Source of the DNA: a virus
Length of the DNA: 34,593 nucleotides
IMG/VR virus record: IMGVR_UViG_3300021964_000244
Location: 1-34,593 of that record
Strand: one strand, 5' to 3'
Below are positions 2,455 through 10,484 of this stretch, piece after piece. The notes below the pieces were generated by a model. The model did not search any database and had not been told where the DNA came from. It saw only the letters and a list, made by a program, of their open reading frames with translations. Within the stretch, counting starts at the first letter, position 1, and every line of letters starts with the position of its first letter. The position numbers were made by a program, and so were the translations under genes.

Positions 2455-3159
2455 GTGTCAAAGCGAATATTAGTGATATCGGATTGTCATTTTCCATATC
2501 ATCACGAATCATTGTTTCCTTTTTTAAGGAAATTAAATAAACAATACAAACCAGATACAGTCGTTCACATAGGAGATGAAATGGATTGGCATAGTATTAA
2601 TGTCAGCCATGTTATTAATCCAGACTTACCTTCACCAGCTGATGAATTACTTGGTGGAAGGTCTTTGTGTCAGCAGTTGGAGAAAATATTTCCTAAGATG
2701 ACTTTATTAGAAAGTAATCATGGCTCTATGATTTTAAGAAGGGCCATGGCAAAAGGCATGTCTAAATTCTTTATTAAAGATTATAATGAAATATTAGAAG
2801 TAGGCAAAGGATGGCAATGGAAAGAAAAGCATATTATAGAAACAGAGAAAGGTAAGATTTTATTCGCACATCAGTTTTGTAGAGATATAGCAAAAGCTGT
2901 TAGAGAGAGTGCAATGTCTTGTGTACAAGGACACTTTCATACAGTTTCTGAAATTAAATATGTTGCAAATGATTTCCATTTAAATTGGGGTATGAGTACT
3001 GGATGTTTAGTAGATAAGAAGTCATTGGCAATGGCATATATGAAAGTAAATTTGTCTAAGCCAGTTTTGTCTTGTGGAGTTATTACAGAAGGTATACCTT
3101 ACATTGTTCCTATGGTTCTAAATTCTAACGGATCATGGGATAATAATATATATTTATAA
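2455..3159 (+). CDS. Calcineurin-like metallophosphoesterase
   Basis: This 234-residue protein starts at GTG with no clear ribosome site. It shows the metallophosphoesterase metal-binding set: D10 and H12 in SDCHFP, G40-D41 with D44 in GDEMDW, N88-H89 in ESNHGS, H139 in FAHQ and H160/H162 in GHFHT. The usual GNHE box reads SNHG. The fold hydrolyses phosphodiesters or monoesters using two metal ions. Such genes are common in marine phages without a known substrate. It lies between small lysis-region genes and the three-TM holin, so a role in lysis, nucleotide processing or defence evasion cannot be separated. Confidence 0.85.
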   Translation: MSKRILVISDCHFPYHHESLFPFLRKLNKQYKPDTVVHIGDEMDWHSINVSHVINPDLPSPADELLGGRSLCQQLEKIFPKMTLLESNHGSMILRRAMAKGMSKFFIKDYNEILEVGKGWQWKEKHIIETEKGKILFAHQFCRDIAKAVRESAMSCVQGHFHTVSEIKYVANDFHLNWGMSTGCLVDKKSLAMAYMKVNLSKPVLSCGVITEGIPYIVPMVLNSNGSWDNNIYL

Positions 3160-3169
3160 GGAGAATATT

Positions 3170-3283
3170 ATGAAAGATATTATGTCAAAATGTATAGATC
3201 AATGGAATAAGTTAAACAATAATGCAAAGATATTTGTGTGTGCTTTAGCTGTTCTAATAATCTATGGAATAATATTTGGATGA
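3170..3283 (+). CDS. 37-residue single-TM protein
   Basis: A strong ribosome site (AAGGAG) precedes an ATG at 3170. The 37 residues contain a charged N-terminal half (KCIDQWNKLNNNAK) and a single transmembrane helix (IFVCALAVLIIYGIIFG) running to the stop. The stop overlaps the next start as ATGA, the coupling used elsewhere in this operon. Its place directly before a three-TM holin suggests a holin partner or antiholin; this is inference. Confidence 0.65.
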   Translation: MKDIMSKCIDQWNKLNNNAKIFVCALAVLIIYGIIFG

Positions 3284-3681
3284 TTAATTTACTAGGTGCG
3301 TTAGGTCCTATTGCTAAGATTGCATTAGGTGTTGTTGATAAGTCAGTTAGTGATAAGGATTTGAAAGAGAAGTTAAAGGCTGAGATTTCACAACAACTAC
3401 TAACTAACGATAGTAAAGAACTACAAGCAGCAGCATCTATTATTCAAACAGAAGCTGGAAGTAAGCATTGGCTTACTGCAACATGGCGACCAGCCCTGAT
3501 GTGGATCTGTATCATAGTAATTTTTAATAATTACATATTGATGCCATTCGCTAATATCATTTTCGGTACATCCATAGAGCTGTCTATACCTGATCCTATG
3601 TGGAATCTTCTAACAATTGGTGTTGGAGGGTATATTGCTGGTAGATCAGGTGAAAAGATAGCTGAGAACTGGAAAAAATAG
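3280..3681 (+). CDS. Three-TM holin (GTA_holin_3TM type)
   Basis: The ATG at 3280 overlaps the preceding stop (ATGA), giving 133 residues; a start at 3238 would run through the small TM gene and is rejected. The protein has an N-terminal amphipathic helix (LLGALGPIAKIALGVVDK), a charged middle, then WLTATWRPALMW, a span over IIVIFNNYILMPF and a last span in LLTIGVGGYIAGRSGEK. These are hallmarks of the three-TM holins of gene transfer agents and phages, which permeabilise the inner membrane at lysis. It is the last gene of the rightward operon and is followed by a hairpin terminator. Confidence 0.8.
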   Translation: MINLLGALGPIAKIALGVVDKSVSDKDLKEKLKAEISQQLLTNDSKELQAAASIIQTEAGSKHWLTATWRPALMWICIIVIFNNYILMPFANIIFGTSIELSIPDPMWNLLTIGVGGYIAGRSGEKIAENWKK

Positions 3682-3693
3682 GCTTTTAAAGCT

Positions 3694-3726
3694 CATACAG
3701 GGGGTATTTATATGTTCCCCTGTATG
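3694..3726. terminator. Bidirectional hairpin terminator between convergent operons
   Basis: A perfect 10-bp stem (3694-3703 with 3717-3726, CATACAGGGG paired to CCCCTGTATG) has a 13-base loop. On the plus strand a T-rich stretch (about 3735-3741) follows shortly after. On the minus strand short T-runs follow the stem. It sits exactly between the last rightward gene (ends 3681) and the last leftward gene (ends 3740). Confidence 0.8.
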
Positions 3727-3739
3727 ATTAAGTGTCTTT

Positions 3740-4162
3740 TTAAAAAGGGATATCTGTAGAATCGTCATCTAAAGATTTTAAGACTTTAGTATCTACAGGA
3801 GTACCTTTGTTAGATGAACCCTCTGGTTTGCCTATCATTTTTAACATACCTTTGAATTTAGCTACAACTATCTCGGTAGTATATTTAGTTACTCCGTCTT
3901 GTTCATACTTTCTGGTTTCGATTTGACCTTCAATATATAAAGTCTGACCTTTCTTACAGTATTTTTCTACTGTGTCGGCAATCATAGGATCAAACACAAC
4001 TACATTATGCCATTGTGTTTTTTCTGTGGTTTCACCATCTTTGTTTTTGAATCTTTCGTTAGTAGCTAGATTGAGTCTAGCAAACTTAGATTCGGTTGAT
4101 GTTATTTTGATCTCTGGATCAGCACCCAGATTTCCAAGTAGTATTGCTTTATTGATTGTCAT
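3740..4162 (-). CDS. ssb: Single-stranded DNA-binding protein
   Basis: This 140-residue protein has the bacterial SSB OB-fold pattern: NKAILLGNLGADPEI at the N-terminus, LATNERF, the WHNVVVFD strand, and YCKKGQTLYIEGQIETRKYEQDG. It ends in the acidic tip DDDSTDIPF, the tail that recruits partner proteins in this family. A ribosome site (AGGAG) lies before the ATG. It coats single-stranded DNA during replication and recombination. It is the last gene of the leftward operon, downstream of annealase and exonuclease genes that act on the same substrate. Confidence 0.95.
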   Translation of the reverse strand: MTINKAILLGNLGADPEIKITSTESKFARLNLATNERFKNKDGETTEKTQWHNVVVFDPMIADTVEKYCKKGQTLYIEGQIETRKYEQDGVTKYTTEIVVAKFKGMLKMIGKPEGSSNKGTPVDTKVLKSLDDDSTDIPF

Positions 4163-5297: not shown

Positions 5298-5605
5298 TTA
5301 AACATCCTTTCAATGTTGTCTTTATGTACCCATACAATAACATTTCTGTTATTAGTATTTTTTCTTCTCATATCAGAATCTACAATAACATTATTCTTAG
5401 ACAATTCTGTAATTCTAGCTCTAATACTGATTAGATTTTCTTTTAAATAGATAGCTACTTCATCACCTGTCATACCTAATACAAAATACTTTAATAAATC
5501 TTCTATCTTGTACATAAGCTTAGCTTTTCTATAGATATCTATTTTTTTAGCTGATTCTTTACTAGTAGTTTTATTAGTATAACCAGCTGTATTTGGATAA
5601 GTCAT
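5294..5605 (-). CDS. Winged-helix DNA-binding protein
   Basis: This 103-residue protein has a very strong ribosome site (GAGGAG). After a polar N-terminus, residues about 45-97 read as a winged helix: TGDEVAIYLKENLISIRARITELSKNNVIVDSD followed by a basic wing (RRKNTNN) and a strand (NVIVWVHK). The helix-turn-helix resembles small phage proteins found beside recombination genes. It overlaps both neighbours by four bases (ATGA). It may regulate the operon or assist replication. Confidence 0.65.
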   Translation of the reverse strand: MTYPNTAGYTNKTTSKESAKKIDIYRKAKLMYKIEDLLKYFVLGMTGDEVAIYLKENLISIRARITELSKNNVIVDSDMRRKNTNNRNVIVWVHKDNIERMFK

Positions 5606-6249
5606 TTTATCTCCTCTATTAAATATTGTGTTTTACGTTTCTTTTGATAATCCTCATACCAATCATGGTGAGGTATTGTTTTATCACTGATACATAAATA
5701 CAAATACTTTTCTGCTAATACTAGATCAGCAATATATTTATCATCTCTATCTACCTTAAAAATATGATGATTCATATTCCCAGAAAATATTGATAGATAT
5801 GATTGACTGAAGTCTAATACATTCATGTAATGTTGTAACTGACCATAGTATTTTTGTACCTGATCTGTTACAGGTTTAAAAGGATTAGTATGCTTAGCTT
5901 CAAAGATAGCTTCTTCGCCAGCTCTATCTCCTTTTTCATTTGAATGAATTAGTCCGTCTACTCTAGCATGAGCATATGGTTTATCTGGATCAGTCCATAT
6001 ACTATTAGAAGTATGAACTGGTAATCCAGTTACTTTAGTAAACCATATTCGGTTTAGTTCTTCGGTTGCTATACCCATTTGCACAGGTAATACATCAGAT
6101 AGATCAGTAGTTACTTCATTGATCTTATCTTCGACAATCTTACGCCATTCGGCATAAGTACCTAGAACAATATTGTTAGCATCACTGCCACCAATAGTTT
6201 TTAAGACCTTAAATTCTGTAGTCTTTTCTTGTGTTTGTAGTCCTTCCAT
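5602..6249 (-). CDS. YqaJ-like recombination exonuclease (PD-(D/E)XK)
   Basis: This 215-residue protein carries the YqaJ/lambda-exo nuclease motifs in order: IGGSD (19-23), GIATEE (59-64), ARVDG with D98, the core E117-A-K119 in IFEAKH, and YYGQLQHYM with Q137 and H140. The enzyme digests one strand of duplex DNA 5' to 3' to leave tails for the annealase encoded two genes downstream. Its start lies inside the previous gene (49-base overlap) after an AAGGGG site. Family length (about 200 residues) is normal. Nuclease assignment is strong. Confidence 0.88.
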   Translation of the reverse strand: MEGLQTQEKTTEFKVLKTIGGSDANNIVLGTYAEWRKIVEDKINEVTTDLSDVLPVQMGIATEELNRIWFTKVTGLPVHTSNSIWTDPDKPYAHARVDGLIHSNEKGDRAGEEAIFEAKHTNPFKPVTDQVQKYYGQLQHYMNVLDFSQSYLSIFSGNMNHHIFKVDRDDKYIADLVLAEKYLYLCISDKTIPHHDWYEDYQKKRKTQYLIEEIK

Positions 6250-6491: not shown

Positions 6492-6660
6492 TAATTAAAT
6501 CCTTCCAGTTATCAAAAACAGCTTTATTTACATCTTCATGTAAAACTTTTAAATTACCTACATGGATTTCGGTAGGAGAACCGATATTTTTATTAATATT
6601 ATTAATCTCATCTTTTGTTAATGAGATATATAATTTCTTATTTTGATATACTATTCTCAT
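6475..6660 (-). CDS. Hypothetical protein
   Basis: This 61-residue protein (MRIVYQNKKLYISLTKDEINNI ...) has a GAGG ribosome site. It overlaps the regulator gene upstream by 23 bases and the helical protein downstream by 17. The first half looks like beta strands, the second like one acidic helix (VNKAVFDNWKDLINEEY). No motif is recognised. Confidence 0.55.
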   Translation of the reverse strand: MRIVYQNKKLYISLTKDEINNINKNIGSPTEIHVGNLKVLHEDVNKAVFDNWKDLINEEYQ

Positions 6661-6883
6661 CTTTCCTCAATTCTAATATAATATCACAATCTAGTGCATC
6701 AGCCCAGCAACAAAACAAATAGCCACTCGGTTTTCTAATACCGACTTCCCATTTTGATACTAAGCCTTTAGCTACTCCTAGAATATCATCTAGATTAGCT
6801 TGTGTTATTCCTTTTCTATTTCTAGCTTCTACGAATTGAGGAATTATTTTAGTAAAAAATCTTTTGCCTAAAGCATATTCCAT
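6638..6883 (-). CDS. XRE/Cro-CI type DNA-binding regulator
   Basis: Read from the ATG at 6883 this is an 81-residue protein; a TTG at 6889 would add two residues, and neither start has a clear ribosome site. The central part (about 18-62) is an XRE helix-turn-helix: ARNRKGITQANLDDILGVAKGLVSKWEVGIRKPS followed by WADALDC. It is one of two likely transcription factors here (the other is at 5294-5605). It is the first gene after the structured RNA block and lies about 30 bases downstream of that block's last hairpin. Whether it is a repressor of early genes or a Cro-like switch is not shown. Confidence 0.8.
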   Translation of the reverse strand: MEYALGKRFFTKIIPQFVEARNRKGITQANLDDILGVAKGLVSKWEVGIRKPSGYLFCCWADALDCDIILELRKDENSISK

Positions 6884-6911
6884 ATCCAAGAAGTAATGTT
6901 TTTTTATACGA

Positions 6912-6952
6912 AAGGCAAGGATGATATCTCATTACGGCAACTACCTTGCCTT
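6912..6952 (-). terminator. 3' hairpin of the RNA block, possible terminator/switch
   Basis: AAGGCAAGG (6952-6944) pairs over 9 bp with CCTTGCCTT (6920-6912), followed on the minus strand by a short T-run and then CGTATA. A competing 5-bp hairpin, GGCAA (6950-6946) with TTGCC (6940-6936), uses the same left arm. The position, at the end of the structured block and just before the regulator gene, suits a weak or conditional terminator. The T-tract is short, so efficiency is uncertain. Confidence 0.45.
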
Positions 6953-7450
6953 AGGTATATTTATTGATCTACGAAAAGACTCCTAGTCTTTATCTTTTGC
7001 ATAAAATAGATCAATTTTATTTATTCAATCACCATTTAGGGTTTCCCCTTCACTATCAACTTGGTCCATGAATAAAACTCAATTCACTAAAGGCGTGGGA
7101 TTATTTTATCACCCACAAGCTTTCGACTACAGATAGAATTTCGCTCTATGTCTACTTACAACCACCCTTGAGTACCTCAGGCATTTGCCCATACTTCATC
7201 TTAGGTGTACCTTACGCCTCTGTTGAAACGTTATTCGGTCAGCCTGAAAGGGAGAGCTACTCCCTAACGTGAAACTTTGAGGATGTGCAGATCGGCACTA
7301 TCATATCTGCATTAGTAGAGATCAAGCTACTTATACCGACATCCTCTCGCTCAGCGAAACTTGTAGGTAGTTTTAGGAAAAACAGATATTCTCATGTTTA
7401 TATATCCCTCGGCACTACCTGAGCCTAAAGAATTACCAACGGGCAATTCT
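6912..7450 (-). ncRNA. Candidate large structured non-coding RNA
   Basis: The stretch between the DUF932-like gene and the XRE gene has no credible reading frame and is visibly more G+C-rich than its neighbours. On the minus strand it folds into a chain of helices, 5' to 3'. (a) 9-bp hairpin 7450-7429. (b) AGGTAGT 7420-7414 with 7371-7365, interleaved with TTTAGG 7429-7424 and 7377-7372 (pseudoknot-like, sharing one base with (a)). (c) 7359-7354 with 7350-7345. (d) Branched stem 7346-7339 with 7286-7279, holding two inner hairpins. (e) 7270-7265 with 7233-7228, holding GGGAG/CTCCC. (f) 7219-7214 with 7184-7179. (g) 7173-7168 with 7082-7077, enclosing further hairpins. (h) 7076-7069 with 7027-7020, capped by AGGG-GAAA-CCCT. 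(i) 7015-7007 with 6971-6963, holding a 7-bp stem. Several stems need G-U pairs available only on the minus strand. It resembles large ornate phage RNAs such as GOLLD in style, but I cannot assign a family. Confidence 0.65.
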
Positions 7451-7457
7451 AAACTTA

Positions 7458-8270
7458 TTAATTTAATACTTTCATACCAGCAATCTTGCGTTGTCTATCA
7501 TATACAGTATTGATAGATGCACTTGGGTAATGTGTTGCCCAGTGTGTCCATGCTTGATATGCACTAAATAAATTCTTACCATATCTATTAGAGTATGAAT
7601 CATATTGGTCAAGTATATATTTCTTACATTGTTGATTTACATGACTTTTATCTCTATGTGTTGGTTGGAAACATAATCTATTTGTTTCTAAATCAATATC
7701 GATATCAGTAATTACTGTTTTAGACCATTTATCCATATATCTTGTTACATCATGCAAATTATTTAATTGTTTTGCATCTGTACCTAATACAAGTTCTTTC
7801 TTACTACTATGTCTTTTAGAAATATGTATATCCCATAGGTTATGACCTAAGCCATTAGTACATATTTCATAAACATAACTAATAATTAATATAAATGATC
7901 TTGTGCCATTTAAACTATTAAACATAGATGCTTTGAGCATGATACGGCTATCTTTAAATGGTTCTTGATATTTAGGTAATGTAAAATCATATCTGATTAC
8001 AGTACCATCTGGAGCTGATTTAGATTGTACAATCATACCATCAGTATCAAAATGCTTATCCAAATAAGTTACTGTTTTTACTAAACATTCTTCATTTGTA
8101 AGCACTTGATACGATTGTTTTTGTACAGATAATAATTGATCTGTATCAGCATTTCTTAGTTGTTTATAACCCTTAATAAGTTCACCTTGCTGGTTATAAA
8201 TAGGCATTTCTTCAACAGGGAAAAATAATTGTGAGTTGATTTCCCTTTGAGATTGTATTACATGGTCCAT
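7458..8270 (-). CDS. DUF932-like phage/plasmid protein
   Basis: This 270-residue protein begins at an ATG with an AAAGGA site. Its layout matches the DUF932 / TIGR03299 group: an N-terminal region with LSVQKQSYQVLTNEE, a strand-rich middle (MLKASMFNSLNGTRSFILIISYVYEICTNGLGHN), and a C-terminal helical part with NLFSAYQAWTHWATHYPS. The family is common in phages and plasmids near recombination and replication genes, but its activity is not established. It ends eight bases before the structured RNA block. The family call is by pattern. Confidence 0.65.
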   Translation of the reverse strand: MDHVIQSQREINSQLFFPVEEMPIYNQQGELIKGYKQLRNADTDQLLSVQKQSYQVLTNEECLVKTVTYLDKHFDTDGMIVQSKSAPDGTVIRYDFTLPKYQEPFKDSRIMLKASMFNSLNGTRSFILIISYVYEICTNGLGHNLWDIHISKRHSSKKELVLGTDAKQLNNLHDVTRYMDKWSKTVITDIDIDLETNRLCFQPTHRDKSHVNQQCKKYILDQYDSYSNRYGKNLFSAYQAWTHWATHYPSASINTVYDRQRKIAGMKVLN

Positions 8271-8297
8271 ATACGAGTCCTTTCCTCTCTTATAGAG

Positions 8298-8549
8298 CTA
8301 GATGGTAGTTAATGGGTTATCATCTAGCTCAGCATAATTGATATCAATTGCGATATCACATTCTTTAATAATCTTATCTACAAATGAAATAGCTAGATCC
8401 AAGTTTTGACCTTGTACTATTTTTGATTTGCTAACAGAACTTAAAAGTACATATGCTTCTTTTAACTTCTCACGATCATTTTCAAGAGATTCGGTTTGTG
8501 ATTCCAATTCTTCTTGTTTTTCTTGATACATAGCTTTAACTTTTCCCAT
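8298..8549 (-). CDS. Coiled-coil hypothetical protein
   Basis: This 83-residue protein has a strong AAAGGAG site. The first half is an uninterrupted charged helix (QEKQEELESQTESLENDREKLKEAYVLL), very likely a coiled coil. The second half (DLAISFVDKIIKECDIAIDINYAELDDN) is a shorter helix plus acidic tail. It belongs to a cluster of small helical proteins at the start of the leftward operon, which in phages often holds host-takeover genes. No function can be given. Confidence 0.6.
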   Translation of the reverse strand: MGKVKAMYQEKQEELESQTESLENDREKLKEAYVLLSSVSKSKIVQGQNLDLAISFVDKIIKECDIAIDINYAELDDNPLTTI

Positions 8550-8721
8550 CTATTATCTCCTTTAATTCGATTTTAGCTTGTAATTGTAGTAGTTTTCTTT
8601 CTACTCTAGCTAGTCTTTCATTGAATTTCTTATCAACTTCTATTTGAGATTTCTGAAAATCAATGTTTTTAACAAGAACATTATGTATTTTCTCGTTAAT
8701 ATTCTTTTGTTCTAAGTCCAT
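8536..8721 (-). CDS. Coiled-coil hypothetical protein
   Basis: This 61-residue protein is helical throughout (FQKSQIEVDKKFNERLARVERKLLQLQAKIELKEII), with heptad-like leucine and isoleucine spacing. It has an AAGGAG site and overlaps the next gene by 14 bases. Pairing with the coiled coil encoded downstream is plausible given the overlap, but not shown. Confidence 0.55.
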   Translation of the reverse strand: MDLEQKNINEKIHNVLVKNIDFQKSQIEVDKKFNERLARVERKLLQLQAKIELKEIIDGKS

Positions 8722-9068
8722 GATACTTCTCCTTCCTCTTTGATTTCTTGTTCAAATTTCTTATCATGTTCAAACTTATTGAACTTCGGTTCATCTATGT
8801 TTCCATATACTGCACCAGTTCTGGCATCATATACATAACCTTCTGGTGATATATGAAATACTCTTTTGGTTACACCAAATGCTTCTGCACGATTCATTTG
8901 CTGTTCCATTTTATTAACCCTATATAAATTCAACATAGTTTCTGAATATCTAGGATTAATTGCATTATGATAGTACCATACGGCTCTATCTTTTGCATAT
9001 TTGTATACTACTGTTGTAGCTACTGCTTTAGCAACTTTTGGTGCTAATTTTAAAGTCCATTTAATCAT
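8712..9068 (-). CDS. Hypothetical basic protein
   Basis: This 118-residue protein starts with a basic amphipathic segment (MIKWTLKLAPKVAKAVATTVVYKYAKDRAVWYY), which could touch membrane or nucleic acid. Its middle resembles a short beta-hairpin (RVFHISPEGYVYDARTGAVYG) and the tail is acidic. It abuts the upstream gene with no spacer and has an AAAGGA site. No family recognised. Confidence 0.55.
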   Translation of the reverse strand: MIKWTLKLAPKVAKAVATTVVYKYAKDRAVWYYHNAINPRYSETMLNLYRVNKMEQQMNRAEAFGVTKRVFHISPEGYVYDARTGAVYGNIDEPKFNKFEHDKKFEQEIKEEGEVSWT

Positions 9069-9311
9069 TTACTTTGTCCTTTCTACAAATGGGAACACTA
9101 AATCCCCTTCTTTTTCAATCATTTTTGACTTAATGATTTCAAATTCATCTTCTTTTTGGATTGCGTGTTCTATTAGTTTGATAAAATCAGTAACCCATTT
9201 ATGATAATGATCTACTGTTTTTAAATCCATGCCTTCGTTATTATGTTTTAATTCATATTCTACGGCTTGGAATGCTTTTAGCTGTTCAGCTAATCTCTCT
9301 TTACTAGTCAT
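9069..9311 (-). CDS. Hypothetical helical protein
   Basis: This 80-residue, charged helical protein (MTSKERLAEQLKAFQAVEYELKHN ... HYHKWVTDFIKLIEHAIQKEDEFEII) has a GGAAAGGA site and overlaps the 38-residue membrane protein upstream by eight bases. It resembles many small early phage proteins of unknown role. Confidence 0.55.
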   Translation of the reverse strand: MTSKERLAEQLKAFQAVEYELKHNNEGMDLKTVDHYHKWVTDFIKLIEHAIQKEDEFEIIKSKMIEKEGDLVFPFVERTK

Positions 9312-9420
9312 ATAAGTTCCTTTCCAATATCGGTTTTATGACATGAACTTCTAGTATTGCATAACTAGCTCCAGTCCACATTCCCAATAATAGCATATAT
9401 ATCATATGTGTAGTAATCAT
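9304..9420 (-). CDS. 38-residue single-TM protein
   Basis: An ATG at 9420 preceded by a strong AAAGGAG site opens a 38-residue frame. Residues about 5-24 (HMIYMLLLGMWTGASYAILE) form one hydrophobic helix, followed by a charged tail (KPILERNLYD). Its stop overlaps the next gene's start by eight bases, the tight packing seen through this operon. The ribosome site, coupling and single span support a real gene. Its role is unknown. Confidence 0.6.
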   Translation of the reverse strand: MITTHMIYMLLLGMWTGASYAILEVHVIKPILERNLYD

Positions 9421-9479
9421 TTTAATTTACTCCTTTCGGTTTAAGTTATGGCGAGCGGATGCGAGCCGACTTTTTTTTT

Positions 9480-9520
9480 CTGGATTGCTATCCAGAACCA
9501 AAGGGGTTTATCCCCTTTGG
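9480..9520. terminator. Two tandem hairpins downstream of the first leftward gene
   Basis: CTGGAT/ATCCAG (9480-9485 with 9490-9495, 4-base loop) and CCAAAGGGG/CCCCTTTGG (9498-9506 with 9512-9520, 5-base loop) are both perfect. They lie between the 178-residue gene and the 38-residue TM gene. On the minus strand no T-run follows; instead there is a run of nine A. They may act as an attenuator, processing site or 3' stabiliser rather than a simple terminator. Confidence 0.5.
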
Positions 9521-9548
9521 AATAAATGTTATTAATTAAGAATTAATG

Positions 9549-10085: not shown

Positions 10086-10484
10086 TTTTAGTTCTCCTAT
10101 TTAAGATATTATAATTTATATTTATTATATATTTTATAATATTGTTATATGGTGTTATCTCCATGATAACGCCTTGATGACCACTGAAACTAAAAAAAAG
10201 AATAATGCAAATGTTGCCTTTGAGGCGACATATTGTTGTGTCAGAAACGCTGGGGTTGGGGCCCTAGCGTAATAACGAATGCCATCGACAATCTGTCCAT
10301 TTGTATTATTGTTTTTTCTTAGTTTTTTGAGCTAGGTTCTAAAGGATTTAAGATATCCTTTACGAGATAAGTGGGGGTTTGGGGGTTGTGTACCCCCAAC
10401 GAAATATGCAGTGTATTCAGATAGATATTGAATGTCTACATTTTTTACTTGACAGTCTTTTTTCTTATCTATAACTAACAAGAG
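10086..10484. other. Divergent control region with five hairpins
   Basis: No gene is seen in these 399 bases. An almost pure A/T tract (about 10095-10150) is followed by hairpins at 10151-10173 (9 bp), 10211-10231 (9 bp), 10248-10269 (8 bp), 10341-10361 (7 bp) and 10379-10399 (7 bp, TTGGGGG/CCCCCAA). G-runs are frequent at 10251-10261 and 10372-10385. It separates leftward early genes from rightward packaging genes, so it must hold divergent promoters. It is also a natural place for a replication origin or packaging site. The hairpins are seen directly; the roles are inferred. Confidence 0.6.
10449..10475 (+). promoter_or_regulatory. Sigma-70-type promoter for the rightward late genes
   Basis: A perfect TTGACA -35 box (10449-10454) is followed after 15 bases by TATAAC (10470-10475). 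The spacer is slightly short; ATAACT one base later would give 16. Transcription would begin about 10481-10485, at or next to the GTG start of the small terminase gene. As no phage RNA polymerase is visible, host-type promoters like this are expected. Confidence 0.6.

Follow-up and report, generated by a model that had tools for sequence, protein, structure and literature searches.

Comparison with related phages indicated that the untranslated gap between a DUF932 gene and a small HTH regulator gene in a small marine phage holds a chain of six RNA modules, each predicted to fold independently, in the order A-B-manA-C1-C2-D. The central module was identified as a divergent relative of the manA RNA, a candidate riboswitch, and its flanking modules recur on the same strand in many other orders. 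Among the readings of function, an RNA that acts independently of the adjacent gene appears the most likely, and we hold it with slightly better than even confidence.

The window, i.e., the whole stretch of DNA analyzed, comprises the 34,593 bases of a record from an uncultured virus (IMG/VR IMGVR_UViG_3300021964_000244). Its head and tail genes are of the podovirus type, and its portal resembles those of the Pelagibacter phage EXVC031P Hodr (56% identical), which by this protein was the nearest cultured phage found, and of other marine podophages. The minus-strand genes at approximately 10.1 to 3.7 kb include those for a DUF932 protein, a small HTH regulator, and RecE/YqaJ-like and other exonucleases; thus, the term "early operon" used in the initial annotation is a fair inference. 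The RNA block lies between the DUF932 and HTH genes and is co-directional with both. The features are as follows.

7458 to 8270, minus strand: upstream gene, DUF932 protein, phrog_1221, 270 aa
7363 to 7456, minus strand: module A, starting with AAGTTT, an 8-bp hairpin (7449-7430) plus a helix (7420-7414/7371-7365), 19 loci
7278 to 7362, minus strand: module B, starting with AAGTTTC, a small hairpin followed by an 8-bp closing stem that encloses two hairpins, 22 loci
7080 to 7277, minus strand: manA-type module, with outer stem P0 (7273-7269/7087-7083), P1 hairpin, closing stem (7244-7242/7094-7092), and arms P2 to P5
7085 to 7265, minus strand: exact span aligned to the Rfam manA model (RF01745)
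7018 to 7074, minus strand: module C1, a UAUUCA...UGAAUA stem that encloses a GAAA-capped stem, also in L166 and L183
6966 to 7015, minus strand: module C2, a GAUCUA...UAGAUC stem, also in L135 and L224
6910 to 6958, minus strand: module D, a AAGGCAAGG...CCUUGCCUU hairpin directly upstream of the HTH start codon, 18 loci
6638 to 6883, minus strand: downstream gene, small HTH_3 regulator of about 81 aa, ATG at 6883
5602 to 6249, minus strand: RecE/YqaJ-like recombination exonuclease, further down the operon, a possible agent of module exchange

A second structured gap in the same operon (9312-9548, minus strand) contains a strong CCAAAGGGG hairpin, then another hairpin after which come an A-run and a short ORF; it is 85 to 90% conserved in relatives. 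The gap at 10086-10480, also conserved in relatives, has highly stable hairpins on either strand (z as low as -5.7) and is probably a divergent promoter/terminator region.

Structure and family of the RNA block

The initial annotation had described about 540 gene-free bases, and this was borne out: 7457-6890 contains 14 to 20 stops in each minus-strand frame, and no open stretch exceeds 44 codons. Its central proposal, a structured noncoding RNA with many helices on the minus strand (6910-7456), finds support in the covariation seen across many homologues. The three outcomes named as refuting it, namely, no covariation, absence from relatives, and a conserved protein frame, were each checked, and none refuted a structured RNA; the comparison of related phages gave compensatory changes above those in shuffled controls in the core and in modules A and B. 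The claim of a G+C-rich block held for the middle (approximately 0.37 to 0.45 at 7000-7500), while elsewhere the G+C content was not raised. The minus-strand sense was upheld, with abundant G-U pairs in the covarying helices that the plus strand would turn into A-C and one G-U pair that was invariant in 40 of 40 sequences (alignment A2, columns 90/101).

Folding energy alone was insufficient to establish the structure. The minimum-energy fold of the block was -161.7 kcal/mol on the minus strand (z of -3.3) and -141.9 kcal/mol on the plus strand (z of -3.7), and sliding-window z values averaged -2.2 inside the block versus -1.7 outside, with similar values common in the coding regions of this genome. 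We therefore rejected the z-scores as proof of a structured RNA, and the case rests on homologues. Such values, unremarkable against the genome background, speak for chance folding of AT-rich intergenic DNA, but this explanation is already refuted by comparative sequence data, i.e., by covariation far above both the shuffled and the slid controls and by an Rfam match with an E value of 2e-8.

Scanning of the minus strand with the Rfam models, which the initial annotation had proposed and which we ran at a relaxed threshold, gave one credible match, the manA RNA RF01745. The match at 7265-7085 covers the model at full length (positions 1 to 192) with 38.3 bits and an E value of 2.1e-8 for the block and 3.9e-8 in a 1-kb scan, and the earlier inability to match the block to a family is thereby superseded. 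As the gathering score of RF01745 is 55.2 bits, the window core is a divergent manA relative and not a curated member; relatives of the same type scored 28 to 42 bits, and model positions 1 to 192 were also matched at full length in six more window-type loci. No other credible Rfam family was found in the window, and the same held, manA aside, for an Rfam scan of seven array-bearing loci.

The manA core elements present in the window are UGACUGAAUAA, a hairpin, and UAAGGU, plus a 3' hairpin with AAUCC. The core pattern TGACYGAATAA...TAAGGTR occurred in at least 120 IMG/VR stretches, and RF01745 scores over 33 viral records graded from 195 to about 25 bits. The window-type pattern TATGGRCAAATGYCTGAGG was found in 92 stretches, 63 of them distinct by flanking sequence. 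A reciprocal covariance model (R1), built on 26 window-type sequences, recovered bridging manA RNAs in L112 (E of 7e-9), L097 (1.7e-6), and L035 (1.1e-5), and RF01745 gave 59.5 bits for L112 and 122 bits for L035. With the cultured cyanophages P-SSM7 and P-RSM4 the R1 result was marginal (E of about 0.02 to 0.03). Neither RF01745 nor R1 found manA in Hodr, and three query sequences of the window-type RNA found no DNA relatives in 50,697 phage records. Of seven matches to TATGGRCAAATGYCTGAGG in bacterial genomes, the four examined (L240, L242, L243, and L244) were rejected as chance, as they were without the manA core and the model aligned just 22 nt in each. Tandem manA copies in one record were observed in L038 (two, about 190 nt apart) and in G029.

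The pairing of the core was strongly supported by compensatory change. In an alignment of 59 sequences, 16 of the 26 pairs predicted by RNAalifold showed two-sided changes, and the closing stem of the four-armed junction was compensated by G-C, U-A, C-G, and A-U types. A hand-written structure of 39 pairs, tested on 40 close homologues, had 102 two-sided compensatory cells versus 32.0 +/- 6.5 in shuffles (0 of 500 as high); 96.5% of its cells were paired, versus 34 to 49% when it was slid by 1 to 3 columns, and the energy fold of the window core agrees with it. The unpaired loops of the core were conserved, and near-invariant loops were found in two arms, UGACYGAAYAA...UAAGGU and GUAUGGRCAAAUGYCUGAGG. 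P1, the closing stem, and the four arms follow one another in the window RNA as they do in manA, the core UGACYGAAUAA...UAAGGU is common to both, and both occur in marine phages. However, besides its subthreshold score, the window RNA has GGC/GCC in place of the GGGAG/CUCCC closing stem of the Rfam model, an outer stem P0 that falls outside the model helices, and the second of the two arms above, which is new; it is also part of an array whose other modules are new.

No Rfam match was obtained for modules A, B, C1, C2, and D. Five pairs were changed on both sides in module A versus 1.5 expected, and 29 cells were altered on both sides in module B versus 9.8 expected (0 of 500 shuffles in each case). 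Module D showed 2 compensated pairs among 10 sequences, and 16 of 500 shuffles were equally high. For C1 and C2, the comparisons comprised three or four sequences each: in C1 an outer U-A pair is replaced by C-G in L166 and GGG-GAAA-CCC by GGC-GUAA-GCC in L183, and in C2 a U-A pair is replaced by C-G in L224. Compensatory change thus gives good support to A and B and moderate support to D, while for C1 and C2 the support is thin. Modules A (7425-7411) and D (6952-6935) share GGC-(U)AAGGUAGU-GCC on the minus strand, which is possibly a duplicated motif or a competing hairpin.

Most of the stems named in the initial annotation are real. The hairpin 7450-7429 and the helix 7420-7414/7371-7365 both covary (3 and 2 pairs altered on both sides, respectively), the short hairpin 7359-7345 belongs to module B, the stem 7219-7179 lies inside the manA core with its strongly covarying pairing, and the GAAA-capped stem 7049-7038 is the inner stem of C1 for which L183 carries the exchange described above. 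The proposed interleaved pseudoknot, in contrast, was rejected: among 10 homologues, several had its second helix (7429-7424/7377-7372) disrupted and none showed a compensatory change in it, and conservation of CCTAAAAC persisted even without its pairing partner. A role of the block as a terminator was likewise rejected, since no terminator-like site was found at 6600-9500 of the window.

Module orders and neighboring genes

The modules occur in many combinations, always in the same sense. A profile search with 14 module seeds over approximately 1.67 Mb of fetched loci gave 129 non-core module matches, and all 129 were on the strand of the core (on the majority strand where the core was absent). 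They recur in about 57 IMG/VR loci and 28 different orders, where the module definitions and boundaries are our own, some arrays end at contig ends, and all loci are metagenome contigs. With M for the manA core, the window reads A-B-M-C1-C2-D, and other orders were A-M-D (L009), A-B-M-D (L002), A-B-M-J-D (L008), A-B-M-G-J-D (L006), M-B-I (L131), M-B-K-D (L134), L-M-C2-E-I (L135), B-M-C1 (L166), M-H-L (L168), and the coreless B-A-E-I (L219). Ten different modules were seen directly after the core. Module B lies ahead of the core in some phages, behind it in L131, L134, and L194, and ahead of A in L219, which indicates rearrangement beyond mere deletion. An (A/G)AGTT start was found for A, B, and C1 in nearly all contexts and for the core in 20 of 43, while C2 and D were without it; thus, the seam is a tendency and not a rule. 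When L163 (4713-4844) was compared with L135 and L168, module L varied in length by an additional internal insertion of about 45 nt, so that the modules themselves lengthen and shorten.

The constant strand and the many orders point to phages assembling folded RNA parts in varying combinations. A mosaic distribution, a common AAGTTT start in several modules, and the presence of two or more intergenic module sites in single genomes (L167, L183, and L199) would also be expected if the modules were small selfish intergenic repeats that move as DNA hairpins and whose RNA fold is incidental. We regard this as very improbable, because mobile palindromes would not give a bias of 129 of 129 to one strand, and the compensatory changes with G-U pairs in the RNA sense and the conserved unpaired loops of the core also speak against it. 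More tentatively, and with less than even confidence, we propose a combinatorial RNA locus in small marine phages, in which at least 12 folded cassettes in one orientation, with AAGUUU seams and an optional manA-type core, would be reshuffled between genomes. The modules would be swapped by recombination at these short seams, plausibly through the phage RecE-like system, given that such a nuclease is encoded about 1 kb away.

The linkage between RNA and genes was found to be loose by comparison of loci, with neighboring genes that are not conserved. Relatives of the HTH gene were found in at least 80 viral loci, many of them without the RNA upstream. At 86 to 98% identity, most HTH loci had modules upstream, and no module was found upstream in 26 HTH loci at 63 to 79% identity (L258 to L283); in the 25 of these in which the upstream ORF was resolved, it stops 18 to 20 nt before the HTH start, with no RNA between. 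In four contigs of this set, those with L046, L168, L183, and L150, manA is found approximately 2.6 to 3.2 kb downstream of HTH on the same strand. In L031 the RNA precedes the DUF932 gene (45% identical) instead, while a divergent phage, L149 (HTH 61%, DUF932-like 20%), has the same DUF932-manA-HTH order as the window. At 2838-3746 (minus strand) of L159, a homing-endonuclease-like gene (phrog_5046, HNH endonuclease) immediately precedes a manA RNA of the window type.

These loci bear on the possibility that manA is a cis-regulatory leader, i.e., a riboswitch-like or protein-binding element that controls the next gene (here HTH), with the other modules as insulation. Weinberg et al. (2010, PMC2864571) classed manA as likely cis-regulatory; in the broader set of manA loci the downstream gene was co-directional in 78 of 90, and many window-type copies end 20 to 40 nt before a strong Shine-Dalgarno sequence and ATG. 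However, T-runs and a new promoter come after some copies (L133, L138, L142, and L144) and other genes after others, in the window the core is separated from HTH by variable modules over as much as about 200 nt, and the 25 HTH genes without RNA upstream argue against a dedicated HTH leader. In HTH loci with module D, 27 nt separate its end from the HTH start; as D invariably adjoins HTH in these loci, at least this module may act in cis. Taken together, we consider a leader function of manA rather unlikely, though it is the most substantial of the alternatives.

Promoters and candidate functions

The cyanophage-type copies (L010 to L129) differ from the window type in usually having their own promoter. 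Of 76 copies, 67 had a near-consensus sigma-70 promoter (TTGACA/TATAAT, at least 10/12) in the 60 nt ahead of them, versus 0 to 3 in controls, and the -35 box is often within the loop of the terminator of the upstream gene (GAGGGTTGACACCCTCTTTTTTT). Only 6 of 56 window-type copies had a good promoter at their edge, and the window block itself has just a weak 9/12 site at 7475-7446. Same-strand tRNA genes occurred within 400 nt of manA in 11 of 92 cases, and tRNA genes (Asn, Gly, and Thr) follow manA by 5 to 19 nt on the same strand in L015, L036, L054, L078, L118, L125, and L075. In annotated cultured cyanophages (L226 to L237), manA directly follows gp23 or a capsid/vertex gene in 5 of 12 and pstS in 2 of 12; the genes after manA are unrelated to each other, and in P-TIM68 the gene after it is on the opposite strand. 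Several of these annotations place small "hypothetical proteins" over the manA RNA.

The promoter-RNA-gene layout of cyanophages fits a gene-independent RNA, a leader, and a transcript-level element. For a leader, the unrelated downstream genes, the tRNA genes, and the opposite-strand gene in P-TIM68 are difficult to reconcile. A transcript-level element, acting in put-like processive antitermination or in protection or processing of the operon mRNA, would make the next gene irrelevant, and it agrees with an RNA that is always sense to the transcript, mostly in co-directional operons, that in cyanophages begins at a promoter, often one with its -35 box inside a terminator loop, and that precedes genes or tRNAs of many kinds. 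Nevertheless, no terminators were found at 6600-9500 of the window, and the put RNAs of phage HK022 are much smaller than the block; we judge this reading improbable but still a serious alternative.

The gene-independent reading is favored because HTH genes occur without the RNA, manA lies 2.6 to 3.2 kb away in some contigs, the order is changed in L031, cyanophage copies have their own promoters, and tRNAs lie downstream. Against it stand the co-directional genes (78 of 90), the Shine-Dalgarno sequence and ATG 20 to 40 nt further on, the order in L149, and the promoters in just 6 of 56 window-type copies. For a gene-independent RNA, the window block would be transcribed by read-through from the DUF932 gene, and each module would fold on its own. 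The manA module would then be no dedicated leader but a free-standing, trans-acting, or protein- or ligand-binding RNA, in which short closing stems and four arms present the two near-invariant loops as the likely binding surface. The flanking modules may be passive or auxiliary structural units that provide shielding, spacing, or processing sites and that would be exchanged between phages by the recombination proposed above.

Comparison with known RNAs and implications

The manA RNA itself is already known. It was described as a motif and candidate riboswitch (PMC2864571) and was seen again in S-CREM1, with wcaG about 370 nt from manA (PMC9964418); text searches found no functional study of it in the literature covered. 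The known motif is a potential 5' UTR of sugar, nucleotide, chaperone, and photosynthesis genes, whereas the window RNA lies between DUF932 and HTH and has no metabolic neighbor, although gene neighborhood provides no structural criterion for family membership. The wcaG RNA (RF01761) is likewise a marine phage RNA and had no match in the window.

A likeness to GOLLD and ROOL, which are single large oligomer-forming RNAs (PMC12286853), extends to the block being a large phage-associated noncoding RNA. The window block differs in that its modules are separable and form a chain, here within a phage record of 34.6 kb. The initial annotation had asked for Rfam scans for these families and for group I and II introns, and we found no match to GOLLD, ROOL, or either intron group up to an E value of 10 at 6905-7457. 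One ornate RNA of the GOLLD/ROOL type was therefore rejected, the modules also occurring separately and reordered elsewhere. The manA-type core resembles a tRNA cloverleaf in its four arms and in a closing stem that directly abuts the 3'-most arm, but it has no conserved CCA end and its loops are unlike those of tRNA; ARAGORN detected no tRNA or tmRNA, and this identity was rejected.

As judged from the sequence comparisons, the new elements are a divergent manA subfamily, its putative outer stem P0, five new modules with covariation, and a one-strand mosaic of many orders. As far as we could find, the modular array around manA is undescribed. Since 2010 manA has been an orphan candidate riboswitch, and a second, divergent subfamily with strong covariation is now available. 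Because the RNA persists next to changing neighbors, and the cyanophage form comes with a promoter of its own, the question shifts from which gene is regulated to what the RNA does for the phage. If the array is transcribed as a unit, the different orders amount to natural swap experiments on RNA modules. A combinatorial locus, if it exists, would be an RNA counterpart of gene-cassette arrays, by which phages would vary composite noncoding RNAs, perhaps directed against changing hosts or defenses.
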